The notes beneath the pieces are model-generated. The model ran no database searches and was not told where the DNA came from. It saw only the letters and a list, made by a program, of their open reading frames with translations. DNA of 47,010 bases from a virus. Location of the stretch: positions 1 to 47,010 of IMG/VR virus record IMGVR_UViG_3300036857_000284; one strand, 5' to 3'. Both the position numbers and the translations under genes were made by a program. Shown piece by piece: positions 3,909-34,036 of the stretch (positions within the stretch are counted from its first letter, which is position 1; every line of letters begins with the position of its first letter).

Positions 3909-4020
3909 GCGCGGGCTCTTTCGCCGGCGGCGCTTTCGGTGTTGGCTCGGGTGTCGGTTGGATTGGTTCGGTCAACGGCACGACTGTGATGCGCCGAATG
4001 GGTTTGCCTATGTCTGCCAT
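3874..4020 (-). CDS. small proline-rich phage protein (48 aa)
   Basis: It begins MADIGKPIRRITVVPLTEP and continues with alternating proline, glutamate and threonine (TPEPTPKAPPAKEP). Short peptides of this type, with a basic PIRRI start and a proline-rich tail, are common in alphaproteobacterial phages, with no known role. Its ATG overlaps the stop of the last cassette gene (TAATG). The tail is probably unstructured. Confidence 0.6.
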   Translation of the reverse strand: MADIGKPIRRITVVPLTEPIQPTPEPTPKAPPAKEPAHVPTGPEHVPA

Positions 4021-4298
4021 TATGCTCGCTCCCCCCGCAACTTGCCTGCCATCGCACGGGAGTCGGCGGCGATCGCATTGAGGTCGTCGGAGTTCACGGC
4101 GTCGTCCGCGCGATCCGCCATCCGGTCGAGGAAGGCGGCGGCTTCGGTGATCCGCTTGCCGTCCTCTAGCAGCTTGCCCTCATAGTGGAATAGTCTCTGC
4201 TGATCTCCAGCACGCTCGGCGCACAGCCGCTCGATCTCATCGGCGGCCTCCCATCCTCCACACGCCCCCTCGCGCAATCGCTTAACGATATCGCTCAT
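4020..4298 (-). CDS. cassette h: coiled-coil accessory protein (92 aa)
   Basis: Starts MSDIVKRLREGACGGWEAADEIERLCAER, a pattern close to Ea22-like accessory proteins of phages, and ends with an alanine-rich helix (ITEAAAFLDRMADRADD...AIAADSRAMAGKLRG). The ending closely matches cassettes a and e (EAAAFLDGLA...DCRAMAAKLRALEGK). It is the last member of the array and the only long one without the ALEGK end, as expected because no cassette follows it. No function is known. Confidence 0.75.
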   Translation of the reverse strand: MSDIVKRLREGACGGWEAADEIERLCAERAGDQQRLFHYEGKLLEDGKRITEAAAFLDRMADRADDAVNSDDLNAIAADSRAMAGKLRGERA

Positions 4299-4299
4299 G

Positions 4300-4560
4300 C
4301 TACTTCCCCTCCAGGGCGCGGCGGGCCGTCATAGCTGCACTGGTGAGCCATTTATCTCCAAGCGCATCCTCCCAAGTATCGTTCACCATCTCTCTTAGCG
4401 CCGCCGTCAGCCGCTCGTTTTCAATCGACAGGGCGCAGCGCGAGGCCGTCAGCCGCTCGATCTCGGCGCGCAGTCTTTCCTCAAGTCCGCAATTGCATGG
4501 CCCGACTGGAAGGGCGGGTGCGTTGTAGATCGCACAGTCGGAATGGTGCACGTCGCTCAT
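4300..4560 (-). CDS. cassette g: coiled-coil accessory protein (86 aa)
   Basis: Begins MSDVHHSDCAIYNAPALPVG, then has a CNC motif and a heptad-like helix (LEERLRAEIERLTASR...SIENERLTAALREM), a tryptophan-containing middle, and the shared end ARRALEGK. Its N-terminal MSDVH is shared with the degenerate cassette d. The start at 4560 follows the junction GGAGGGGAAGTAGC, which gives a strong ribosome-binding site. Function is unknown. Confidence 0.7.
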   Translation of the reverse strand: MSDVHHSDCAIYNAPALPVGPCNCGLEERLRAEIERLTASRCALSIENERLTAALREMVNDTWEDALGDKWLTSAAMTARRALEGK

Positions 4561-4561
4561 G

Positions 4562-4663
4562 CTACTTCCCCTCCAGGGCGCTCCAGCCGGGACCACTGCT
4601 ACCCGGCCTCGCAGGGCGTCGGGGGCGATTGCGCATTCGCCACACCGCAGGAGTGTTGCTCAT
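4562..4663 (-). CDS. cassette f: minimal cassette (33 aa)
   Basis: A very short frame (MSNTPAVWRMRNRP...WSALEGK) between two junction elements. Start and stop fit the array rule: ATG overlaps the TGA of cassette e (ATGA), and the end is ALEGK-TAG followed by C-ATG of cassette g. The body is basic, glycine/proline-rich and not coiled-coil, so it may be a remnant left by deletion of a longer cassette. Whether the peptide is used is unknown. Confidence 0.45.
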   Translation of the reverse strand: MSNTPAVWRMRNRPRRPARPGSSGPGWSALEGK

Positions 4664-4953
4664 TCCTTCCCCTCCAGGGCGCGCAGCTTCGCCGCCATCG
4701 CGCGGCAATCAGAAGCGATAATCTTAAACCCTATGCCGTGGTAATCATTAGACGCTTCAAGGTCGTCTGCCAGCCCGTCGAGGAAGGCGGCGGCCTCGGC
4801 GATCTGCTCATGCAGATCATCAATGGACTTCTCATAGGACGCATTGCGTTCCTGTGAACGCTGCACGTCCTTGTCAGCCCGCAGCCGCTCGTTCTCGGCG
4901 CGCAGCCGTGCAAGCTCATGGTCCACGCTGGTCATCTCAGAATTAGGTCTCAT
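4660..4953 (-). CDS. cassette e: coiled-coil accessory protein (97 aa)
   Basis: Long helical protein: heptads in LARLRAENERLRADKDVQ and KSIDDLHEQIAEAAAFLDGLADDLEA, then SDCRAMAAKLRALEGKE. The second half is strongly similar to cassettes a and h, which shows duplication followed by divergence of the first half. The start follows a variant junction (GGAGGGAAAACT). The end is ALEGKE-TGA, not ALEGK-TAG, so it overlaps cassette f. Probably cytoplasmic and oligomeric; role unknown. Confidence 0.7.
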   Translation of the reverse strand: MRPNSEMTSVDHELARLRAENERLRADKDVQRSQERNASYEKSIDDLHEQIAEAAAFLDGLADDLEASNDYHGIGFKIIASDCRAMAAKLRALEGKE

Positions 4954-5035
4954 AGTTTTCCCTCCAGGGCGCTAAGTTTACGCGGTTGCGATGCTCAGCG
5001 GGCTCAAAAGCTTCGGAACGGTGCACGTCGCTCAT
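4943..5035 (-). CDS. cassette d: degenerate cassette (30 aa)
   Basis: Starts MSDVHRSEAFEPAEHRN like cassette g, then runs through a junction element in a different reading frame, so the end reads APWRENYET where other cassettes have ALEGK. It shows that the junction DNA, not the encoded ALEGK peptide, is what is kept: the element still provides GGAGG before the next ATG at 4953. Likely a decayed member. Confidence 0.4.
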   Translation of the reverse strand: MSDVHRSEAFEPAEHRNRVNLAPWRENYET

Positions 5036-5036
5036 G

Positions 5037-5342
5037 CTACTTCCCCTCCAGGGAACGGCGGGACACCCATTTGTCGGCGTCCCTATGCCACGACTGTTGC
5101 GGTATAAACTCTCCGGCCATCCAAGCGCGCGCCGCAAGAATGAGCGTATTGGCCAGGGCGAGCTCCGCCCTCAATTCGTTGTTGATGCGCATGATCTCCT
5201 GCATACCCCGCTCGACCGCCGATGGCTGCCGCAGCGCGATCTGCTCGATGAATTGATCTCGTTCTTGAGTCAGCCGCTCGATCTCGGCGCGCAGTTCTGC
5301 GTTCTCGTCGCAAAGCCTGCGCCATTCCGGTGCTAGGTTCAT
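5037..5342 (-). CDS. cassette c: coiled-coil accessory protein (101 aa)
   Basis: Begins MNLAPEWRRLCDENAELRAEIERLTQ, a long charged coiled coil, with a second helix (MRINNELRAELALANTLILAARAW), and ends DKWVSRRSLEGK. The DKW motif also occurs near the end of cassette g, so the two share C-terminal as well as coiled-coil parts. The junction before it is the standard form. Function is unknown. Confidence 0.7.
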   Translation of the reverse strand: MNLAPEWRRLCDENAELRAEIERLTQERDQFIEQIALRQPSAVERGMQEIMRINNELRAELALANTLILAARAWMAGEFIPQQSWHRDADKWVSRRSLEGK

Positions 5343-5343
5343 G

Positions 5344-5535
5344 CTACTTCCCCTCCAGGGCGCGGCGGGCACAGTCCGTCATGGACCGAATAATATCCCG
5401 CAACCCGTGTTCGTATTCCCCTGTCAGGTTGCACTTGTCGAAATCCGCGATAATTGTCATCTGCGCCCGCAGCCGCTTGATCTCGGCGACGAGCTTGTCG
5501 ATGGTGTCCATTGCGCGTTCGGTGATATCGCTCAT
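5344..5535 (-). CDS. cassette b: small coiled-coil accessory protein (63 aa)
   Basis: MSDITERAMDTIDKLVAEIKRLRAQM begins a single helix; a short loop (DKCNLTGEYEHG) follows, then RDIIRSMTDCARRALEGK. Both ends match the array rule: TAG of cassette a, one C, then ATG at 5535, and ALEGK-TAG at the end. It is the shortest intact-looking member. Function is unknown. Confidence 0.65.
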   Translation of the reverse strand: MSDITERAMDTIDKLVAEIKRLRAQMTIIADFDKCNLTGEYEHGLRDIIRSMTDCARRALEGK

Positions 5536-5536
5536 G

Positions 5537-5797
5537 CTACTTCCCCTCCAGGGCGCGGAGCTTCGCTGCCATCGCGCGGCAGTCGGCGGCGGCTTGTGGC
5601 AGGCTTTTGGCGAGTGGATTATCTAGGCGCTTCGCCAGCCCGTCGAGGAAGGCGGCGGCTTCGGTGCGTATATGCAATAGGTCGGCGATCAGCGAGGCGT
5701 CATGCGCCGCATATTCGCGCTGTTGCCGGAGTTCGGCACGCAACCGTTCGAGCCCGTCATGGTCGGCTTTTTCGCGATAGAACCGATCTGCGCTCAT
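5537..5797 (-). CDS. cassette a: coiled-coil accessory protein (86 aa)
   Basis: First member of the array in transcription order. It starts at the ATG at 5797, which overlaps the TGA of the 169-aa gene (ATGA). Heptads occupy GLERLRAELRQQREYAAHD, followed by TEAAAFLDGLAKRLD and the shared CRAMAAKLRALEGK. A longer open frame upstream is a shadow of the neighbouring gene. It donates the ALEGK-encoded ribosome-binding site to cassette b. Confidence 0.7.
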   Translation of the reverse strand: MSADRFYREKADHDGLERLRAELRQQREYAAHDASLIADLLHIRTEAAAFLDGLAKRLDNPLAKSLPQAAADCRAMAAKLRALEGK

Positions 5798-6303
5798 TGC
5801 TTGACCCCACCGCCGCGACGGATCACGAGCGCGCGCGGAGGGGCATTCGGTTTTTTGTCGATTGCCTCGCAGGCTTGCATGATCATGTGCGCGGGCGTTT
5901 GCGGATGCTTGACCCAATCCTCGATAGCCTGTTTCGAGACGAAAAAATGATCGGCAGGGACGTCCTCGCCGACTATGCTGGAAAATGCGACGCTTGAATT
6001 GCTGTATGCGCACAGGCGACCGGCGGCGAGTTCGGCGCGCACGTCATCCGGGTCGAGGCCGAACCGTGTGATGAATTCGCCGAGGCCGAGGCCGACCTTG
6101 TCGGGTTCGTTGTCGATTTGCTGTTGCGTGGCGAGGCGTTCCTCTAGCGGGACCGAAATTTTCCGTGCCTCGACTTCTCCGCCCTCGACTTTGGCGGCGA
6201 GGAGATCCATCGCTTGTTGCCGAGTATATCCGCCTTTCATGAGGTAGGCGACGGCCGTGTCGATATCCATCCATTTGCGCTTGTCGGATTTGCGCTTTGT
6301 CAT
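5794..6303 (-). CDS. hypothetical phage protein (169 aa)
   Basis: Not recognised. A highly basic start (MTKRKSDKRKW) is followed by a helical part that resembles a small DNA-binding fold (VAYLMKGGYTRQQAMDLLAAK), and later an acidic part (RFGLDPDDVRAELAAGRL). The second half includes a short hydrophobic stretch and ends with a proline/arginine-rich tail. It is in a chain of ATGA-coupled genes between the 118-aa gene upstream and cassette a downstream. Confidence 0.6.
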   Translation of the reverse strand: MTKRKSDKRKWMDIDTAVAYLMKGGYTRQQAMDLLAAKVEGGEVEARKISVPLEERLATQQQIDNEPDKVGLGLGEFITRFGLDPDDVRAELAAGRLCAYSNSSVAFSSIVGEDVPADHFFVSKQAIEDWVKHPQTPAHMIMQACEAIDKKPNAPPRALVIRRGGGVKQ

Positions 6304-7886: not shown

Positions 7887-9158
7887 TTAGGCCGCTTTGC
7901 CGAACGCCGGCGCGGCGAGCTTGCCGCTCACGAGGCCGGTGACGAACTCCGCCCATAGCTCGAATCCCCGCCGTTGTGCGGCAAGCTTTTGTCCGGGCAG
8001 ATAGGTTTTCTGCACGACGGTGTGGGGCTCGTGGCCGATCATCTGTTCGGCGACCCGAAAGTCGACGTCGAGGTCGTCAAGGCCGCTGCGCATGGTGCGG
8101 CGCAGGTCGTGCAGGCGGAATTCCGCCACCTTGCCGAACACCGCCTCGTCGAGCTTGGCCTTGGCCTTGCTCCAATTCGAGAATCCAAGATCCTCGGCCC
8201 CAAACACGAACCGGCGGCCCTGCGGACGTTCGCCGATGATTTCGAGCGCGGCCGGCGGGAGCGGGATCTGGCGGGCGTTGCCGGTTTTGGTACGCTCCGC
8301 GGGCAGGTTCCAAACGCCGTCGGCAATCTCCGCCCATTCCATGCCGCCGATTTCTTCGCGGCGGTTGCCCAAGAGGATAGCGAGCCGAACAATCCGGCCG
8401 TAATCGCCAAGCACCTCGGCGGCCTGCCATACGAATTTGAGCTCGGCGTGGGACAAGGCCCGCTCGCGCGGCTTGCGGTCCTTTCTGCCCAACGGATCCT
8501 CGGTCACGCTGGCGGGGTTGGCCTCGACCCATTCGCGCGAGCGGGCGAAATCGAACAGCATGCACGCCGCCTCACGCGCTTGATGCGCCGCGCTGCGGGA
8601 GGGTTTCGCCGCCGTGGTGACCGTGTTGCCGGCCTTGTTCTCGCGCGCGTGTGCCACGCCGACGTCACAAATCAGGTCGAGCCGTTCGGCAATATCGCCA
8701 ACCGAGATCCGGCGCAGGTCGACGCCGTGCAGGGGGGCAAAGTACGAGCCCTGTAAATAGCGCGGATATCCCCGCGCGGTGTTGGGGCGAACGTCCTCGG
8801 AGCGCCGTGCAATGAACTCCTCGGCCGCCTGCGCCCATGTGCGCCGCTTGACCGCCTTCGGGGCCTCGGCCGGCTTGCGCTCGGCGAGCGGATCCTTGCC
8901 CTCGCGGATGGCCTTGCGCACGGCATAGGATTCCAACTCTGCATCGGCCACAGGAAGGCCCGCAACCGGGCCGAGGCGCACGGGCACGCGCTTATCGCCG
9001 ACGAGCGGGCGCACATACCAGATTTTGGAAACGACGCCGTCCTCGCCCTTCCTAAGCCGAATGGCGAGGTCGTGTTGGCCGTAGATCCACTCGTCGGCCT
9101 TGGCCGTGGTGAGGGCGGCGACAATTGCCTGATCAAATTCAATTCGCGGGGCGCGCAT
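7887..9158 (-). CDS. int: tyrosine-type site-specific recombinase (phage integrase)
   Basis: 423 residues, a normal length for P4-type integrases. The N-terminal arm-binding domain (about 1-95) is followed by a core-binding domain (105-215) and the catalytic domain. Catalytic residues are visible: Arg266 in LLGNRREEIGGMEW, His350 and Arg353 in LHDLRRT, His376 in MIGHEP and Tyr386 in KTYLPG. It catalyses strand exchange between phage and chromosomal attachment sites through a 3-prime phosphotyrosine link. A ribosome-binding site (AGGAAC) precedes the ATG at 9158. The attachment core was not identified; either flanking gap (7780-7886 or 9450-9821) could hold it. Confidence 0.95.
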   Translation of the reverse strand: MRAPRIEFDQAIVAALTTAKADEWIYGQHDLAIRLRKGEDGVVSKIWYVRPLVGDKRVPVRLGPVAGLPVADAELESYAVRKAIREGKDPLAERKPAEAPKAVKRRTWAQAAEEFIARRSEDVRPNTARGYPRYLQGSYFAPLHGVDLRRISVGDIAERLDLICDVGVAHARENKAGNTVTTAAKPSRSAAHQAREAACMLFDFARSREWVEANPASVTEDPLGRKDRKPRERALSHAELKFVWQAAEVLGDYGRIVRLAILLGNRREEIGGMEWAEIADGVWNLPAERTKTGNARQIPLPPAALEIIGERPQGRRFVFGAEDLGFSNWSKAKAKLDEAVFGKVAEFRLHDLRRTMRSGLDDLDVDFRVAEQMIGHEPHTVVQKTYLPGQKLAAQRRGFELWAEFVTGLVSGKLAAPAFGKAA

Positions 9159-9449: not shown

Positions 9450-9821
9450 GGTCCTTTTCGTTGGGAAGTTCCCGGGAAGATCCGGGGGCCGGGAACCGTC
9501 CCGGTCGGCTCAACAGATAAGCGGGCGGCACTGATAAATCAACGCATTTTGCGGTATTATCCCCAATTGCGACCCATCTAGCGAGGTCCCCGCTTTCGCG
9601 GGGGTGTCGGGATGGAGAAAAAACCCCAAGCAAATCAAGGCGGATAGCGGACACCACGGGCCGCGGGAAGACCACGGGAAGGTGAGGCGCAATGCCGCAC
9701 AGGGAACGGGGTTAAGAGGTGTTAGTGCGCAATATGGCAAGACACGTCGGGCCCCTAGTCGCTTGCCTAAACGGCAACGAAGGCCCCGCCTCTCTTGGGC
9801 GGTCCCCTTGCGTTCGGCCCC
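9450..9821. other. Gene-free region with a dispersed palindromic element
   Basis: No convincing gene. The hairpin CCCCGC-TTTC-GCGGGG (9588-9603) with its flanks (GAGGT before, GGTGTCGGGATGG after) looks like a common intergenic palindromic repeat of Rhizobiales chromosomes, whose translations give the familiar HPRESGD/PAKAG strings. An AT-rich stretch (9530-9565) and inverted GC-rich segments (CCCGGGAAGATCCGGGGGCCGGG near 9468-9490) are also present. It is a plausible place for attP because it is close to the integrase and free of genes. Confidence 0.45.
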
Positions 9822-10049
9822 TTAATCTTTCCGTTGATAGAGGTCGGGCCGCAACACTGTCCGGTCGACCCCTGTCACCGCCTCGATCTGCACTAAACGA
9901 TCTGCGGGAACGCGCCGCCATTCTGAAATTGCCTGCGGTGTCATGCCCAAGGCCCGCGCGAGCGCGCTTGGCCCGCCCATCTTTTCAAACGCTTGCCGTA
10001 GGCCGTCACTGATTTCCACAGGGGGGCCTTGCATCCGGCGGTCTTTCAT
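9822..10049 (-). CDS. YdaS/Cro-like transcriptional repressor (75 aa)
   Basis: Helix-turn-helix typical of the YdaS/Cro group: LRQAFEKMGGPSALARALGM followed by TPQAISEWRRVPADRLVQIE, in which the second helix of the motif is PQAISEWRR. Such proteins bind operators of the early phage promoter. Start ATG at 10049; an internal ATG five codons later is possible. It is divergent from the plus-strand gene at 10106, with only 56 bases between the two starts, so it probably controls the lysogeny switch. The C-terminus (GVDRTVLRPDLYQ) is the usual YdaS ending. Confidence 0.8.
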   Translation of the reverse strand: MKDRRMQGPPVEISDGLRQAFEKMGGPSALARALGMTPQAISEWRRVPADRLVQIEAVTGVDRTVLRPDLYQRKD

Positions 10050-10051
10050 GG

Positions 10052-10083
10052 CTACCCTGAAGATGTTCAAGCCTAACCTGAAG
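10052..10083. promoter_or_regulatory. candidate repressor operator: direct repeats in the divergent region
   Basis: CTACCCTGAAG (10052-10062) and CTAACCTGAAG (10073-10083) are near-identical direct repeats with their starts 21 bases apart, about two helical turns, between the divergent starts at 10049 and 10106. Repeats on the same face of the helix suit cooperative repressor binding. I could not place a convincing -35/-10 pair around them. Confidence 0.4.
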
Positions 10084-10105
10084 CGCCATGCAATAGGAGA
10101 AAGAC

Positions 10106-10717
10106 ATGGCAGTCGCACTTTCAAAATATGAGGATGCTTCGTTGGCGTTCCTCAAGGACCATCCCATCGGGACCATCGTCACGCCTGATCGGTTGGTGAA
10201 TTGGGCGGTCGCCGCCGACGGCGACGCCGCCGTTCTGAAAACGGATCTTTTGGTTGACGATCCAGCCAAGCGTCTCTCCGCTCTCCGCCGCCATCTTAAT
10301 CTCGGCGGCGCGAGTCGCAATCTCGACGAAAGTGAGCGTTTCACGCTTGTCATCGAGGACTCCAAGCGCAAGACCATGGCGGTGAGGTCTTTGCAAGAGC
10401 ATGTTCGCGATCAAACGGACGTCGCTTACGCTAAGTCGGTCACCGGCGCGATCAATCCGGTGAAGCGTCAACAGAAGGCCCTCGACGACATTAAGCTCGA
10501 CGAGGTCACGCCAGAGGTGAAGGCGGACGTCGAGGCCAAGCTCAAGGCGTTCGTCGACTACTACAGTCCGTTGCGTAGGTTTCTTTCTCAGTCAGTCATC
10601 GACCGTGAGGTGCGGCGGCTCATGGCGAAAGGCAATAGCGAGGCCACGGCGCGGATGATGCTGGAAATGGCACCATCCTTACTCGGTTCGCACAAGTTGC
10701 TGACTCAGATCGGTTGA
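10106..10717 (+). CDS. hypothetical early protein (203 aa) opposite the repressor
   Basis: Not recognised. First gene of the rightward unit, preceded by ATAGGAGAAAGAC. The N-terminal half (SKYEDASLAFLKDHPIGTIVTPDRLVNWAV) resembles a winged-helix fold of phage regulatory proteins, and the C-terminal half is helical with an acidic coiled coil (KLDEVTPEVKADVEAKLKAF). It is followed by a strong terminator, so it is a single-gene transcript. Position suggests an antirepressor or early regulator, but the sequence does not prove it. Confidence 0.65.
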   Translation: MAVALSKYEDASLAFLKDHPIGTIVTPDRLVNWAVAADGDAAVLKTDLLVDDPAKRLSALRRHLNLGGASRNLDESERFTLVIEDSKRKTMAVRSLQEHVRDQTDVAYAKSVTGAINPVKRQQKALDDIKLDEVTPEVKADVEAKLKAFVDYYSPLRRFLSQSVIDREVRRLMAKGNSEATARMMLEMAPSLLGSHKLLTQIG

Positions 10718-12023: not shown

Positions 12024-12256
12024 CTTATCGAATGAAACAACCGTTGAGTCACGTCGAAATTATCGAGATGATTTTGGCCAACCCGCCGACCAACGTGCGC
12101 AAGTTTGCGAGAGAGGTCGGTTGTTCGGGCAGGTCCGTCGCGCGCGTGATTGCTCGACTCGAAAGCGAGGGCCTGATCACACCTCGCCGCCGCAGCAATG
12201 GCCTATTGTGGGAGGATGCGCTCGACGAGGTCATATCGAAGCGAAAAGCAAAATGA
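12020..12256 (+). CDS. small winged-helix DNA-binding protein (78 aa)
   Basis: A helix-turn-helix region (NPPTNVRKFAREVGCSGRSV) is followed by ARVIARLESEGLITPRRRSN, a classic recognition-helix and wing arrangement (MarR/LexA-like small wHTH). It overlaps the ParB-like stop (ATGA) and the next start (ATGA), so the three proteins are made together. It may regulate this unit. Confidence 0.65.
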   Translation: MTYRMKQPLSHVEIIEMILANPPTNVRKFAREVGCSGRSVARVIARLESEGLITPRRRSNGLLWEDALDEVISKRKAK

Positions 12257-16144: not shown

Positions 16145-16772
16145 GTGATTCCTCCCGCGGCTCGATTGATTGGAATTTATCGACCTCGTTTCCCCACGCA
16201 TCCCATCCCGCGCGCCGCGCGCGCGCGAACAATTCGAGATAGGGGCCGGCGACCAACCGCTCGATCCGCTCGTGCACGCATGCCGGTTTGCGGGAATGCT
16301 CGCGGCGGGGCTCGATAATCGCTTGCCGAACATCGGCGGCGAGGCGCTTTGGCTTGCCGCGCGTGGCGAGCAAACAGGGTTCGGTGTTGGCCCGCGTCCA
16401 ATATCCCATGCCCATCATGTCGGGAATGGCTTGCTCGAACATTTCGAGTTGTCCGGCGTGCGCCTTTGTCCAAGCGAATGCGCAGGTCTTATAGGTGAAG
16501 CCCCATGCCTCGATCACGGATAGCGCGTCGGGCAATTGCGGCCACGAGATCCACAGGAACAGACTGCAGTCAGAGGCCGCAAGCTCGCCGACCGGGAGCG
16601 CCCGGATCTCGGCAATGTCCATCGTCCGATAATGGATAGCACCAACACGCCGGCCGCTGCTGCGAACGCGCGGGATGGCCTCGCGATTGTCCCACGTGCG
16701 GAACCGCCACGGCGGATCCGCGAGGATCGCGCCATAGAATCCACGCCGCAGGCCATCGAAGGCCGCCGCCAT
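16128..16772 (-). CDS. MT-A70 family DNA N6-adenine methyltransferase
   Basis: 214 residues. The catalytic DPPW is at residues 19-22, followed by the target region and AIHYRTMDIAEIRALPVGEL, then LFLWISWPQLPDALSVIEAWGF and a TKA-G-motif region, with ATRGKPKRL and VAGPYLELFARARRAGW at the end. MT-A70 enzymes transfer a methyl group from S-adenosylmethionine to adenine N6. A phage copy may shield its DNA from host restriction or mark it for replication. No restriction gene is adjacent, so this is an orphan methylase. Confidence 0.85.
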   Translation of the reverse strand: MAAAFDGLRRGFYGAILADPPWRFRTWDNREAIPRVRSSGRRVGAIHYRTMDIAEIRALPVGELAASDCSLFLWISWPQLPDALSVIEAWGFTYKTCAFAWTKAHAGQLEMFEQAIPDMMGMGYWTRANTEPCLLATRGKPKRLAADVRQAIIEPRREHSRKPACVHERIERLVAGPYLELFARARRAGWDAWGNEVDKFQSIEPREESHVEPL

Positions 16773-16795
16773 GGCACCGCCTCATGCGGAAAGGT

Positions 16796-17191
16796 TTACG
16801 CGAGCGAGTCGAGCGACGCCTCGGCGTCCGGGCGAGCACGGCGGAGCGCCGCCTGCCCTAGCGGAAGGTCGCAAAAGTCGCCGAGCGAGGCGACCAGCGT
16901 GTCATAGTTTGCCTGATCGTCCTGTTCCAACCGCTCGACATTGCTGTGCATCTTGCGGTCGAGCCGGCGGTTTTTCACCAGCGTCCGGAACGCCCGCACG
17001 GGGATCCCGCTATCCTTGGCCGCCGAGATGGCGTCGGCAATGTCCTTCCGCGGTTCCTTGCAATTGGCCATGTATTCGCCCTTGAGCGAGGCGAGGTGAT
17101 TGTCCGCGTCGTCGATATCCTTCAACAGGCGTTCGAGCACCGCCTTGTCATAGCCGTTGCCGCCTGCACCGCTGTTGGTTTCCGTGTTCAT
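16796..17191 (-). CDS. helical protein, possibly GapR/DUF2312-related (131 aa)
   Basis: First gene of the minus-strand replication unit. A long helical region (YDKAVLERLLKDIDDADNHL) is followed by EPRKDIADAISAAKDSGIPVRAFRTL, similar in arrangement to the GapR/DUF2312 family, where helical subunits clamp overtwisted DNA, and then a basic stretch (KNRRLDRKM). The resemblance is partial and I give it only as a lead. Its ATG at 17191 faces the exonuclease operon, with 239 bases of shared promoter region. Confidence 0.5.
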   Translation of the reverse strand: MNTETNSGAGGNGYDKAVLERLLKDIDDADNHLASLKGEYMANCKEPRKDIADAISAAKDSGIPVRAFRTLVKNRRLDRKMHSNVERLEQDDQANYDTLVASLGDFCDLPLGQAALRRARPDAEASLDSLA

Positions 17192-17335
17192 GTGGGGGCC
17201 TCCGCATAGGTGTCGGCCGCGCCGCCGCGCGCCGGCCGGGTGATTTCGCGAGAGTCGAATCTGTGACGTATCTCGCATTGCACCGTCAACCGTCGGCGGT
17301 TCCTTTGCCTGTGGGCAAGTTTTAGAAAAGGGGGG

Positions 17336-17364
17336 TTGAGGGAACCCGGAATCCGTCCCATTAT
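17336..17364 (+). promoter_or_regulatory. candidate promoter of the recombination operon
   Basis: TTGAGG (17336-17341) and CATTAT (17359-17364) are 17 bases apart, about 65 bases before the 28-aa membrane peptide gene. Nearby are an inverted repeat GGTTCC/GGAACC (17299-17346) and a small hairpin TTGCC-TGTG-GGCAA. The region 17192-17430 must also hold the opposite promoter for the replication unit, which I could not place with confidence. Confidence 0.35.
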
Positions 17365-17430
17365 GGCCACAGCGCCCCGCTAAGGGGGGAATGCGGCCAC
17401 GGCGGCCCGCATCCGGTACGGCAAAGCCCC

Positions 17431-17517
17431 ATGAACGAGATCGAGGTACGCAATCTCGCGGCTTTAATCGTGCTGGCGATTGGCCTGTGCCTGTGGTGCG
17501 TGGGCGTCATCCCATGA
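17431..17517 (+). CDS. 28-residue single-span membrane peptide
   Basis: MNEIEVRNLAALIVLAIGLC followed by LWCVGVIP: a charged N-terminus and one hydrophobic span of about 18 residues. Its TGA overlaps the exonuclease start (ATGA), which supports real translation. Rare for a gene this small to stand at the head of a recombination operon; it may be a small regulatory membrane peptide or simply a leader that couples translation to the exonuclease. Confidence 0.5.
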   Translation: MNEIEVRNLAALIVLAIGLCLWCVGVIP

Positions 17518-18467
17518 AAATCGAGCGCCGGCCGATCATTAACATTGAGGAATGGTTGGCGTGGCGGCGGACCGACGTCCTCACGGCAAGCCGCGTCGCC
17601 GGCCTGTTCGGCCTGCACCCGCGCGAGACTCCCTATTCGCTGTTCCAGCGCGCCCATGGCGTCATTCTCCCGGAGGACGAGGGCGACGTCACCTCGCGGC
17701 AACGCGGCCTCGATTTCGAGGATCTGATCGGCCGCCGGTTCCAGCGCGAGCACCCGGAATTGAAGCTCAAGCGCGCCGGCGTCTATCTGCGCGACCCTGT
17801 GCGCAAGTTCGGCGGGACGCCGGATTTCTTCCTGCGCTCGCCCGCGCATCAAAGGGGCGTGCTCGAATGCAAGAGCGTCGCCCCCTTCGTGTTCAAAAAA
17901 TATTGGACGGAATACGAGCCGCCGCGATGGATCATCATGCAAACGCTCGTGCAAATGATGCTCGCACAGGCGACGTTCGGATGGATCGCGGCCTGCATCG
18001 TCGACGGATACCGATACGACCTGCATTGCTATGAGGTGCCGCGCCACGCCGGCGCGGAGCGCCGGATCCTAGATGCTATCGAGTCATTCTGGCATTGCGT
18101 CGAGAACAACAAGGTGCCGGAACCGGACTATGCACGCGACGGAGCTTTGATTGCGGCCATGAACCAGAGCACGACGGAAGGAAAGACGGTCGACCTGCGC
18201 CACGACAACCGCCTGCCCGAAATCCTCGACGAGCGCGCGCGCCTCAAGCAAGAAATCGACGACGCCAAGGCGCGTTGCGAGGAAATCGAGAACGAAATTC
18301 GCGGCAAGATCGGCGACGCCGAGGCCGCGCTCGTCACAGGCTGGCGATTGACCTGTAAGGAAATCAAGGAATCCGTCGTCAAGGAATACACGCGCAAGGC
18401 TTATCGCCAATTACGCGCCACGCGCGACGAGGCCCCCGCGCCCGCCACTAGCGAGGTCGTCACATGA
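17514..18467 (+). CDS. YqaJ-type viral recombinase (alkaline exonuclease)
   Basis: 317 residues, PD-(D/E)XK nuclease fold. Visible motifs: the starting helix LAWRRTDVLTASRVAGLFGL, then RQRGLDFEDLIGRRF, the catalytic GGTPDFF (Asp104) and VLECKSV (Glu118, Lys120), and a QTLVQMML helix. The enzyme digests one strand of a double-strand end, giving the single strand that RecT anneals. The C-terminal 90 residues form a charged coiled coil (DERARLKQEIDDAKARCEEI) that may mediate oligomer or partner contacts. The ATG at 17514 overlaps the upstream peptide gene and gives the family N-terminus. Confidence 0.85.
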   Translation: MKIERRPIINIEEWLAWRRTDVLTASRVAGLFGLHPRETPYSLFQRAHGVILPEDEGDVTSRQRGLDFEDLIGRRFQREHPELKLKRAGVYLRDPVRKFGGTPDFFLRSPAHQRGVLECKSVAPFVFKKYWTEYEPPRWIIMQTLVQMMLAQATFGWIAACIVDGYRYDLHCYEVPRHAGAERRILDAIESFWHCVENNKVPEPDYARDGALIAAMNQSTTEGKTVDLRHDNRLPEILDERARLKQEIDDAKARCEEIENEIRGKIGDAEAALVTGWRLTCKEIKESVVKEYTRKAYRQLRATRDEAPAPATSEVVT

Positions 18468-19510
18468 ATGTCGTTCCGCTCCCGATCATGATGCGTTGCT
18501 CCGCCTGCGGGGCCGAGGCGCGCGCGGCCTGCGGATGCGGCGCACCCTATGTTCACATGCGGGCGGGCAAGCTCGCGGCCAAGGCCATCGCCGCGAATCC
18601 GGGCCTATCGAATCGGGCAATCGCCGACAAGCACGGCGTTTCTTTTGAGACTGTAAGGCGCGCCCGCAAAACAACTGACACAAATGTGTCAGTTGAGCCC
18701 CGGGTCGGCAAGGATGGCAAGGTTCGCCGCTCGCCCAAGAAAAAGAAAAAGGCCCGGATCAAGAATTGGTGGAAAGATATCACCGAGGCCGACATCGAAG
18801 CCATTGATCCGGGTCCGTCGAACAATCCGCTCGACGAGGATTATGGATCCGAGGATCCGGAAAACTTCCGCACCGCATTTCTCGTTCGCCACATTTTTTA
18901 TTATAATGTCTGGATTGATCCGACAGATAAAACCGCAAAGCCACGCTTGGGCAAAGCGTCGGCAAAAGTATTTTCCGCGACAAAACCCATCGAAATGATC
19001 TTGACCGCCGATCACGTGACCAAATCAATCAAGGCAAAAGGAGTCGGCGACACCTTGCGTTGCTCGGTTGCGTTTTGCGTGCGCGATCATGCTGACAAAT
19101 TTCCCCATGCCATTGACGGCGGCATGATTGACTTCCAATACACCACGGCTTTCGTTGCCAGCAAGCACAACAAATCAGGATGGCCAACCGAGTGTTATGT
19201 TTACCAGCACAGTCTCGGAGAATTCGCAAAGCTCAACGATAGCCGAGGCGGTCAACGCAAACTCTTGAAATTGATCGAACAGCACGGCCCGATTCACATT
19301 GTGCTACGTCCCGCGCGCAAGCGAAAGGAACCGCCGGTCGGCGGACATGGCGGAGCGGTTCGAGGTTTGCGCGCAAAAATTGATTATTCGGGACGCGGCG
19401 CAAGTCGCCGCGCGGCATATGCTCTCGCTGGCGGCGTGCCGTGGGATCAGGTGAACAAGATCCGGGGCCTTGCACAGTCTGCCGCAACAGGCCCCGGTGC
19501 GCCCGCGTAG
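18464..19510 (+). CDS. zinc-ribbon plus helix-turn-helix regulatory protein (348 aa)
   Basis: N-terminus with a zinc-ribbon-like motif (MRCSACGAEARAACGCG, residues about 10-26), followed by a helix-turn-helix (NPGLSNRAIADKHGVSFETV, then RRARK), a lysine-rich linker (RRSPKKKKKARIK) and a large C-terminal domain with WWKD and a hydrophobic core that I do not recognise. It lies between exonuclease and AT-hook genes, so it may bind DNA at recombination or replication sites. A C-terminal catalytic function cannot be excluded. Confidence 0.6.
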   Translation: MNVVPLPIMMRCSACGAEARAACGCGAPYVHMRAGKLAAKAIAANPGLSNRAIADKHGVSFETVRRARKTTDTNVSVEPRVGKDGKVRRSPKKKKKARIKNWWKDITEADIEAIDPGPSNNPLDEDYGSEDPENFRTAFLVRHIFYYNVWIDPTDKTAKPRLGKASAKVFSATKPIEMILTADHVTKSIKAKGVGDTLRCSVAFCVRDHADKFPHAIDGGMIDFQYTTAFVASKHNKSGWPTECYVYQHSLGEFAKLNDSRGGQRKLLKLIEQHGPIHIVLRPARKRKEPPVGGHGGAVRGLRAKIDYSGRGASRRAAYALAGGVPWDQVNKIRGLAQSAATGPGAPA

Positions 19511-19560: not shown

Positions 19561-20160
19561 ATGGCACGACCTAGAAAGAAACGCGGCCCCGGACGGCCCC
19601 CGGGAAGCAAGAATAAGCGCGGGCCCGGACGTCCCAAAGGCAGCAAGAACAAGCCGAAATCTGTCGCGGTCGCCGGATATGGCAACGTGCCCGCGGTGCT
19701 CAACAATATGCGGGCCCGTTTGGGCGAGCTCGAAAGGCGGTTCGTGCATATGGCCAGCATCGGCGAGGCGGAAGATCTTGCCGAGGTCGTGCGCTCGACA
19801 GTCGAGCAAATAACCGAAATGCACAAGCGGGTCGAAAAGCTCACGACCGCTTTCAACGATCTCGTGACCGACGTCGAACATCCGAGCACGCAAATCCTCG
19901 CGCGTCGGCTTATTGCTGTTGAGCAAGCCGACAAGATGACTCGCACCGCGCACGACCGTTTGAACATGCTCGAACAGCATGTGCGCCAGATGCGAACCGA
20001 GGTCGCCGAGCTCGTCAACGATCGCATCACGGAACGCAACCGCGCCGAGGTCGAGCGCATCGCGCGCGGTGAGGAAGAATCGGAAATGCTCTACGGCAAG
20101 CGCCCGTCGGAGATTGAACAGGAACAGGACGAGGACCATGGCGACAAACGCGAGCACTAA
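19561..20160 (+). CDS. AT-hook coiled-coil protein (199 aa)
   Basis: Starts MARPRKKRGPGRPPGSKNK and repeats GPGRPKGSKNK: two consecutive AT-hook motifs (GRP core flanked by basic residues), which bind the minor groove of AT-rich DNA. The rest is a long coiled coil (MRARLGELERRFVHMASIGE to the end) with a basic middle. It overlaps RecT by 23 bases. A reasonable guess is a DNA-bridging accessory factor for RecT or a nucleoid-type silencer. Confidence 0.7.
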   Translation: MARPRKKRGPGRPPGSKNKRGPGRPKGSKNKPKSVAVAGYGNVPAVLNNMRARLGELERRFVHMASIGEAEDLAEVVRSTVEQITEMHKRVEKLTTAFNDLVTDVEHPSTQILARRLIAVEQADKMTRTAHDRLNMLEQHVRQMRTEVAELVNDRITERNRAEVERIARGEEESEMLYGKRPSEIEQEQDEDHGDKREH

Positions 20161-21265
20161 CAGCGGCGGCGGGCCGCTCCAAATCATCCGGCACGACCTC
20201 GAACGCATGACCTCGCAATTCGCCATGGTCATGCCGGCGGACACGGTCGACCGCTTCAAGCGAATATTCGTCACCATGCTACAGGAAAACCCGAACCTGT
20301 TGTCGTGCACGCCCGGGTCGCTCATTCGCTGCGCCATGCGCGCCGCGCAAGACGGGCTCGAACTCGATGGCCGCGAGGCCGCGTGCGTGCCATTCAAATC
20401 CGGCGGCGAAACCATCGCACAATATGTGCCGATGATTTTGGGGATCCGAAAAAAGGTTCGGCAGTCGGGCCTCGTCTCCGATTGGAATGTGCAGGTCGTT
20501 TACGAGGGCGACGAGTTCGAGGTCGCGCTCGGCGATCGGCCGTATATCCTGCACAAGCCATCGCTTAAAGGCGGGCGCAAACGCCCCATCATCGGGGCCT
20601 ATAGCATCGCCACCTTTTCCGACGGCACGGTGTCGCGCGAGTTCATGAACGCGGACGAGATCGAGGACATCCGCGCCAAGTCGAAATCCCGTCAAGGGCC
20701 GTGGGCGGATCCTGTCTATTATCCGGAGATGGCGCGCAAGACGGTCGCCCGCCTGCACGCCAAGCAACTCCCCATGTCGTCGGATCTCGCCGCGGTGTTC
20801 ACGCGCGAGGATCAGGAAACCGGCGCGGTTCCGCCGCCGGCCGCGCCCGCGCCGACCCGCCTGCGCATCGGCAACGTGTCGCACGCGCTCGACGATTTCG
20901 CTTCCTCGCCGTCCCTTTCGGCCCCTCCGCAAGAGGCGGCGGCGGAAGGTCGGGCCCGGGATGACGAGCCGTCGCAATCGTTCCCCGACAGCGGCGGGGC
21001 GTCCCCCGGGCCCGGTGCCGATTGGAGCGACGACGTCGCCCCCGTTCCCGACGACGACCCGGCCGAGCTCGCCGCCGGCCACGAGGCCGCCGACGAGGCA
21101 TTCGACGCCCGCCGCGTTGCCTATGAACTCGGGAAAAAGGCCAAGGCCGCTAACCCCACGGCCCTGCCAAACAGGATCATTCCGGGCGAGTACCGTTCCG
21201 GCGAACGCACCCGCGAGGCCCTTGCGTGGCGGGCCGGGTTCGATGGGCAGGACATGCCGGCGTGA
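20138..21265 (+). CDS. recT: RecT family single-strand annealing protein
   Basis: 375 residues. The RecT core is recognisable: FVTMLQENPNLLSCTPGSLI, then RCAMRAAQDGLELDGREAA, PMILGIRKKVRQSGLVSDW, then VVYEGDEFEVALG, GAYSIATFSDGTVSREFM and SRQGPWADPVYYPEMARKT. It anneals complementary strands produced by the exonuclease. Beyond about residue 230 a proline/aspartate-rich linker leads to a C-terminal part (ARRVAYELGKKAKAANPTAL) ending in WRAGFDG, not present in minimal RecT proteins and like the ribosome-modulation-factor-type tails of other phage genes. Start ATG at 20138 overlaps the AT-hook gene. Confidence 0.85.
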   Translation: MATNASTNSGGGPLQIIRHDLERMTSQFAMVMPADTVDRFKRIFVTMLQENPNLLSCTPGSLIRCAMRAAQDGLELDGREAACVPFKSGGETIAQYVPMILGIRKKVRQSGLVSDWNVQVVYEGDEFEVALGDRPYILHKPSLKGGRKRPIIGAYSIATFSDGTVSREFMNADEIEDIRAKSKSRQGPWADPVYYPEMARKTVARLHAKQLPMSSDLAAVFTREDQETGAVPPPAAPAPTRLRIGNVSHALDDFASSPSLSAPPQEAAAEGRARDDEPSQSFPDSGGASPGPGADWSDDVAPVPDDDPAELAAGHEAADEAFDARRVAYELGKKAKAANPTALPNRIIPGEYRSGERTREALAWRAGFDGQDMPA

Positions 21266-33600: not shown

Positions 33601-33630
33601 CCCCGGCGCGCGTTGCATCCAGCGCCGGGG
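33601..33630. terminator. strong hairpin after the 133-aa membrane protein
   Basis: Perfect 9-bp stem CCCCGGCGC/GCGCCGGGG (33601-33609 and 33622-33630) with a 12-base loop. Plus-strand tail TTCTTCATCC; on the minus strand no T-tract follows. It stands directly after the minus-strand stop at 33635, inside the late operon, so it may partly reduce expression of the genes beyond it or slow mRNA decay. Confidence 0.45.
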
Positions 33631-33634
33631 TTCT

Positions 33635-34036
33635 TCATCCCGGACATACGGGTGGCATCCACTTCAAAGCGTTTGCTCGACTCCCGAGATATGCACGAAT
33701 GCCGGTTGCCATGCCGGTGACCGCTCGTCGTGGCTGGTCGGTGCTGTCCTTTAACCAGATAGAGAAGATGTGCTTGGTGTGCTCTTTAAGGGCTTCGTCT
33801 ATGCCTTCCAGTACGAGGTCACGAATACGCTCGCGCGTGGCTTCGTCCATACATATTTCCGGCTGGATGATCTGGCTCTCCGCGCTCGCCAGCCCATATC
33901 CGGGCCGTGCTGTTTCATCTTCTTCCCAATTGCCTGTGAGGTAACCATATAGCGCGAGCGCGAACAGCACCGCGAGCACGATCACGACCGTGATCGCCAC
34001 GCGGTGCCCGATCGAAAGATCTTGCAAGCGCCTCAC
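33635..34036 (-). CDS. membrane-anchored protein (133 aa), GTG start; lysis-region candidate
   Basis: Basic head, then one span (IGHRVAITVVIVLAVLFALA), then a helical periplasmic part (DEATRERIRDLVLEGIDEAL). This topology resembles an Rz-like spanin inner subunit, although no Rz1 lipoprotein is nested or adjacent. GTG at 34036 overlaps the upstream TGA. It follows a second membrane protein and precedes the strong hairpin. Confidence 0.55.
   Translation of the reverse strand: MRRLQDLSIGHRVAITVVIVLAVLFALALYGYLTGNWEEDETARPGYGLASAESQIIQPEICMDEATRERIRDLVLEGIDEALKEHTKHIFSIWLKDSTDQPRRAVTGMATGIRAYLGSRANALKWMPPVCPG

Follow-up and report, generated by a model that had tools for sequence, protein, structure and literature searches.

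The breaks of mosaic phage genomes fall at gene edges, and it is an old question whether they reflect exchange that is targeted to short boundary sequences or random joins that selection has later sorted. The lambdoid nin region, a "chain of interlinked genes" (Kroger and Hobom 1982, cited in PMC8022706 and PMC7166090), consists of small phage genes (nin) in series, most of them non-essential, with ATGA stop/start overlaps and a content that varies between phages, and in these respects resembles the locus described below. A model in which short conserved boundary sequences act as homologous recombination sites, cited in PMC3233612 and PMC3029335, follows the same logic as the reading favored here, i.e., short homology at module edges leads to module exchange while boundaries stay at gene ends. 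In Cluster K mycobacteriophages, many non-structural genes belonging to various families are immediately preceded by a repeated short sequence (SAS) that contains a Shine-Dalgarno (SD) motif (PMC3203893).

The window, i.e., the 47,010-base virus record that was analyzed, contained eight small ORFs (30–101 aa) in head-to-tail order on the minus strand between 4020 and 5797 (Table 1), with 1-nt gaps or overlaps of 1–11 nt between neighbors. These ORF coordinates confirmed the tandem array of eight cassettes described in the earlier note. A nin-type chain, i.e., small genes with overlapping or adjacent stop and start codons, was thus present; homologues of Nin proteins were not found, as Pfam, PHROGs and NCBIfam gave no cassette a convincing match. 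Unlike the nin region, the array has as its boundary one repeated in-frame word, which supplies both a C-terminus and an SD sequence, and further shared words inside its genes. As the boundary-sequence model would have it, the same short sequence joined different genes in different phages; the array departs from that model in that words are also intragenic, consistent with shuffling below the level of the gene, and in that the boundary is coding, carries an SD sequence and comes as either of two end words. SAS has a different sequence and occurs at dispersed positions throughout the right half of the genome, whereas the junction of the window is restricted to a single tandem array and also codes for the C-terminus upstream of it. 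The 13-bp SAS GGGATAGGAGCCC was absent near array starts, its best match in the array having 3 mismatches. Integron cassettes were rejected, as no attC site (RYYYAAC...GTTRRRY) was found in the array and the integrase of the window belonged by profile match to phage integrase family PHROG 1, and so was a diversity-generating retroelement, as no RVT_1 domain was found in the record, which may be a fragment. Searches of the cassette proteins against Pfam, PHROGs, NCBIfam and PADLOC gave no fitting family, only weak matches to coiled-coil models, and no profile match to named families, including those of known anti-phage defense. By protein homology or consensus sequence the array is a member of no named system, and no description of such an array was found in the open-license literature. 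What is new is a coding end word that doubles as an SD sequence, the interchangeability of two such words and the presence of further words within genes.

Table 1. Positions of the array cassettes, junctions and shared words, and of two recombination genes, in the window
Feature	Position	Strand	Remarks
Cassette a	5537..5797	-	86 aa; M2 + C1 + ALEGK end
Cassette b	5344..5535	-	63 aa; MSDI start, ARRALEGK end
Cassette c	5037..5342	-	101 aa; LRAEIERLT word, RSLEGK end
Cassette d	4943..5035	-	30 aa; MSDVH start; out-of-frame junction
Cassette e	4660..4953	-	97 aa; M2 + C1 + ALEGKE end
Cassette f	4562..4663	-	33 aa; ALEGK end
Cassette g	4300..4560	-	86 aa; MSDVH start, LRAEIERLT word, ARRALEGK end
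Cassette h	4020..4298	-	92 aa; MSDI start, M2, diverged C1, LRGERA end
Junction a/b	5533..5554	-	GCCCTGGAGGGGAAGTAGCATG
Junction b/c	5340..5361	-	
Junction c/d	5033..5054	-	TCC for GCC, giving SLEGK
Junction d/e	4951..4970	-	variant GCCCTGGAGGGAAAACTATG; out of frame with d
Junction e/f	4661..4680	-	variant GCCCTGGAGGGGAAGGAATG; ATGA overlap
Junction f/g	4558..4579	-	
Junction g/h	4296..4317	-	
M2 word in a	5633..5662	-	GAAGCCGCCGCCTTCCTCGAC...
M2 word in e	4768..4797	-	
M2 word in h	4116..4145	-	exact 34-36 nt matches to three other phages
C1 word in a	5558..5590	-	GCCGCCGACTGCCGCGCGATGGC...
C1 word in e	4684..4716	-	
LRAEIERLT word in c	5269..5295	-	27 nt, identical to g
LRAEIERLT word in g	4448..4474	-	27 nt, identical to c
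RecT-family annealing recombinase ORF	19979..21265	+	PF03837, 6e-35; proposed shuffling agent
YqaJ-type exonuclease ORF	17391..18467	+	PF09588, 2e-6

The exact 19-mer CTGGAGGGGAAGTAGCATG was present in five copies in the window, all of them inside the array, and was absent from shuffled sequence. As had been claimed for all seven inner boundaries, five carried the exact word and two (d/e and e/f) carried variants of it. The junction encodes (A/S)LEGK and the stop of the upstream gene, and its GGAGG is a strong SD sequence for the next gene. Six cassettes (a, b, c, e, f and g) read the core in frame, whereas it is out of frame with d, where a check of the reading frames agreed with the earlier observation that GGAGG is nevertheless kept; cassette d and the body of cassette f are both probably remnants. 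Unlike the other cassettes, h ends in LRGERA. Most array boundaries were exactly identical to one another over 22–35 nt (35 nt between a/b and g/h, 34 nt between c/d and f/g and 32 nt between b/c and g/h), and identity ended at points on either side that differed from pair to pair. The MSDVH start common to d and g was likewise recovered, in a stretch of 41 nt at 98% identity that also spans the junction.

A role of the junction in ribosome binding was consistent with predicted SD duplexes, which for all nine array starts were in the range of -10.4 to -10.5 kcal/mol as compared with a median of -5.9 kcal/mol for 26 other window starts, these energies being calculated with a generic 16S 3' end, with one of the 26 comparison starts that lacked a valid duplex counted as weakest, and with the top 5% of random array-strand windows also reaching -10.4. 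Leu CTG and Gly GGG, which are minor codons of this phage (0.18 and 0.16 of the codons for the respective residue), hardly vary in the junction, which would be expected if GGAGGGG were retained for the ribosome. The junction is thus under SD selection. Since the end word is both the C-terminus of one protein and the SD sequence of the next gene, any body joined at it would be translated at once, in support of the claim that cassettes arrive translation-ready.

Selection of this kind also suits an ordinary history, in which a single ancestral gene for a coiled-coil protein was duplicated in tandem and the copies then diverged, with the ends kept for ribosome binding and as a needed C-terminus. 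Small size and a probable helical structure are common to all bodies, and cassettes a, e and h, which aligned over EAAAFLD...RAMA.KLR as the earlier note had indicated, are clear paralogues. The AlphaFold monomer model of cassette e consisted of two helices (residues 5–72 and 74–95, mean pLDDT 90); the small array proteins are probably mainly helical and might, as a guess, be accessory proteins that act in hetero-oligomers. Duplication accounts less well for bodies b, c and g, in which little or nothing was alignable with a, e and h, yet which have the junction DNA in common with them, and for the following properties of words that lie within the genes.

Synonymous sites of the M2 word (GAAGCCGCCGCCTTCCTCGACNNGMTGGCG, EAAAFLD..LA) and of the C1 word (GCCGCCGACTGCCGCGCGATGGCG, AADCRAMA.KL) were nearly invariant in 16 and 10 genes, respectively. 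Codon identity at identical residues between phages was 0.86 for M2 and 0.76 for C1 as compared with 0.50 (658/1313) for other shared proteins, the latter value being from 13 alignments in which other proteins of the window were compared with the contigs of these relatives. Alanine codons depended on position (GCC in 47/47 cases in AAA of M2, GCG in 14/16 at the last Ala of LA in M2 and GCG in 17/20 in C1), and when those of M2 were permuted, the observed regularity was reached in none of 20000 trials. Position-specific Ala codons together with the control proteins thus ruled out codon bias alone as the source of the shared words. M2 and C1 carry no SD sequence yet are conserved at synonymous sites across phages, which speaks against duplication with ends kept for the ribosome. 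The 1.8-kb array had 55 stretches of 18 nt or more that matched relatives exactly and the other 45 kb had five, a contrast that is partly built in because the relatives, whose sequences are not independent, were picked by M2/C1 similarity; comparing codons is accordingly the fairer of the two tests. Among viral contigs, only a handful matched the M2 and C1 DNA patterns exactly, nearly all within this phage set.

Other words were less distinct. The DKW end thought to be common to c and g was a weak match of only about 9 nt; these cassettes do have in common an exact 27-nt LRAEIERLT stretch that had been missed. The LRAEIERLT word was also found in mycobacteriophages, for which reason convergence of high-GC coiled-coil sequence may explain it. 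The MSDI N-terminal word and the LRAEIERL word are possibly shared as DNA as well, the former being a tentative member of the word set.

Relatives detected with a profile of cassettes a, e and h were present in about ten other IMG/VR phage contigs and in no annotated phage, and the M2/C1 profile gave no confirmed relative in 84,980 bacterial and archaeal genomes. The relative contigs are metagenomic, mostly incomplete and drawn from few independent phage lineages, some maybe from one sampling project. Short mycobacteriophage matches (a high-GC coiled-coil stretch) and a non-significant Rhizobium phage match were rejected as relatives of the array, and the neighboring gene at 5794–6303 had no relatives when used as probe. 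The exact 20-mer junction had no match in the other viral or genomic contigs searched. Forms of the same end word (GCGCCCTGGAGGAGAAGGCATGA, GCGCCCTGGAGGGGAAATGA and similar) were attached to other bodies in G002, G004 and G005. A second end word, GGYGAGACATGA (LRGET/ATGA), which pairs with the 16S end at about -11 kcal/mol, starts genes in six relatives; it and the first junction are interchangeable and do the same job. M2/C1 bodies had an LRGET or near-LRGET end in most relatives and an ALEGK end in a and e of the window, which indicates that end words and bodies combine freely. MSDI starts were found with ALEGK bodies as well as with M2/C1 bodies, and each end word preceded several starts. 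Neither the two end words on one kind of body nor the MSDI starts on both kinds would be expected from duplication.

Turnover of cassettes at an orthologous locus was evident from comparison of flanks. Thus, G007, G003, L042 and G005 were collinear beside the array at 72–85% nucleotide identity over kilobases, with a shorter conserved stretch on the other side, whereas the interval between these flanks ranged from about 1.0 to 4 kb and held differing cassettes. A second pair with homologous flanks and differing cassettes was formed by G002 and G004. The relatives do not share the eight genes of the window, and the gene order of the window array was matched in no other contig examined. The cleanest breakpoint found was within a gene, at M2: a gene of G002 and a gene of G007 were 92% identical over 132 nt and unrelated upstream of M2, nearly all of the differences falling within the terminal M2 and C1 words and one in the approximately 95 nt between. 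Since such chimeras exist and duplication cannot produce them, duplication of whole genes is insufficient, and as an account of the array it appears improbable. Thus, the earlier interpretation is partly supported, neither of the outcomes that the note had named as refuting it having been found. Modular gain, loss and shuffling are supported by the different cassette sets at a homologous locus and by the same end word on different bodies; the junction as sole breakpoint is not, given M2/C1 and the second end word. It was broadly right and too narrow, the junction being one of several short DNA words.

The conserved words could instead be kept for a function at the level of DNA or RNA (a binding protein, transcription control or mRNA structure) and not as crossover sites, the shuffled look being due to fast-evolving linkers. 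Synonymous conservation fits such a role, as does the retention of words out of frame where they still serve the next gene, which was noted in d of the window, in L036 and in L042 at 12043–12246, where C1 and the LRGET word are read as RARLPRGGEEAEG. The SAS of Cluster K, repeated start-site sequences of unknown role, provides a precedent (PMC3203893). Against these points, the words are constant in order and orientation and nearly always in frame, from which it follows that selection on protein acts as well; SD pairing already accounts for the junction words, and a whole segment is replaced in the G002/G007 pair. A purely functional explanation of the words is thus of low probability. A further alternative, in which the complete array was recently acquired by lateral transfer from another mobile element and has not been shuffled locally, would suit array families that occur in only a few groups of phages and lack a match in the family libraries, in a window that has an unrelated recent exchange elsewhere, but is highly improbable given that orthologous loci hold different sets and that the array of no other contig has the gene order of the window.

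We therefore consider it rather probable that the array represents a hypervariable accessory locus in which annealing recombination, acting at short words, reassembles the genes and the products are kept translation-ready. RecT and ERF are annealing recombinases. The window encodes a RecT, of which the YqaJ-type exonuclease is the probable partner, and among relatives RecT was found in G009 and ERF in G002, G003 and G004. The 37- and 87-kb contigs G005 and G010 had no RecT or ERF, and RecT is put forward as a candidate agent. Rad52-like phage recombinases drive exchange at short, diverged homology (PMC3945230), and word identities of 23–36 nt, like the exact identities of 22–35 nt between most array boundaries, are close to the minimal pairing segment of 23–27 bp for Red-beta quoted in the same paper. 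Exchange of short diverged stretches was assayed there for lambda-type phages and prophages, whereas here it is deduced from genes and sequence.

According to this scheme, the small genes would be patchworks of conserved DNA words of approximately 20–36 nt with unrelated inserts between them, the set comprising an MSDI start (tentatively), M2, C1 and one of the two end words, RALEGK or LRGET. RecT here, or RecT or ERF in relatives, would probably pair words between copies of the array or between co-infecting phages, giving new combinations; a body joined at an end word would be translated immediately by re-initiation or coupling, and out-of-frame joins would leave short remnants that still hand on the ribosome-binding site. 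We infer recombination of the array from sequence comparison; coupled translation, ongoing activity and a benefit of variation are likewise presumed. With regard to the question of targeted exchange, the candidate crossover words can be read directly, are common to phages at synonymous sites, coincide with breakpoints and are in some cases intragenic, and they would also solve the expression of a newly arrived gene. The array thus offers a concrete, testable substrate for gene shuffling driven by RecT or ERF and may be one way in which new small genes arise. A bolder proposal, that this is a dedicated gene-assembly locus of temperate phages in which a small set of words codes for protein modules and at the same time provides sites for crossover and ribosome binding, and from which annealing recombinases repeatedly build new translation-coupled small helical proteins, including wholly new reading frames at out-of-frame joins, is tentative and on balance doubtful; if true, the locus would be a recombination-driven nursery for new genes.

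A position between replication genes and a late antiterminator is a further trait of the nin region. The array lies on the same strand as, and between, the integrase gene (7887–9158) and a weakly NusG-like gene (871–1449), the contig end limiting the gene order that can be read. The latter gene, downstream of the array and beside an HNH gene, gave an E value of 9e-4, just under the Pfam cut-off, and its product is a possible phage antiterminator. Apart from the genes already mentioned, ParB, MT-A70, AAA_25 and tail genes were noted in the window, including a baseplate J-like protein that matched those of many phages at about 30–37%. The phage, which carries an integrase, is probably temperate.

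Elsewhere in the window, the region 33616–33879 had a 172-bp exact match to L033 (G003), with about 92% identity over 376 bp between genomes that are otherwise very different. Three of the five non-array exact matches of at least 18 nt fell in this region, and the likeness is a recent exchange unrelated to the array. Twelve loci were found with CGCGCCCTGGAGGRGAA, most of them unrelated or chance matches. One, L015 in an unrelated phage (G006), had two successive genes on the minus strand (approximately 9500–10700) that end in RALEEK and RALEGK, with the next genes starting GTGAAGCCCGACCTGGAG; it had no M2/C1, and its dual-purpose junction is probably a parallel case by convergence. Upstream of the cassettes of L031 (G003) and L023 (G007) lies a flanking gene (REDHLVANLTLAAGFLRGMASRLDN...AAADCRA) that resembles the M2/C1 cassettes in a diverged and fixed form; it may represent an ancestral copy of them. 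In L043 (G007), two arrays (16738–17190 and 18034–18690) flank a gene of 268 aa (17198–18004) with a weak IS110-type match, an arrangement also noted in L036 (G005). In the arrays of L043, two 10-nt repeats, GAGCGAGCCA and GAGAGCRCCA, alternate and are separated by variable spacers of 8 nt, giving a 36-nt unit; 28 exact copies of GAGCGAGCC are included. Together with the 268-aa gene, these repeats, which lie inside the hypervariable locus of the cassettes, look like a TIGR-Tas system (compare PMC12045711).
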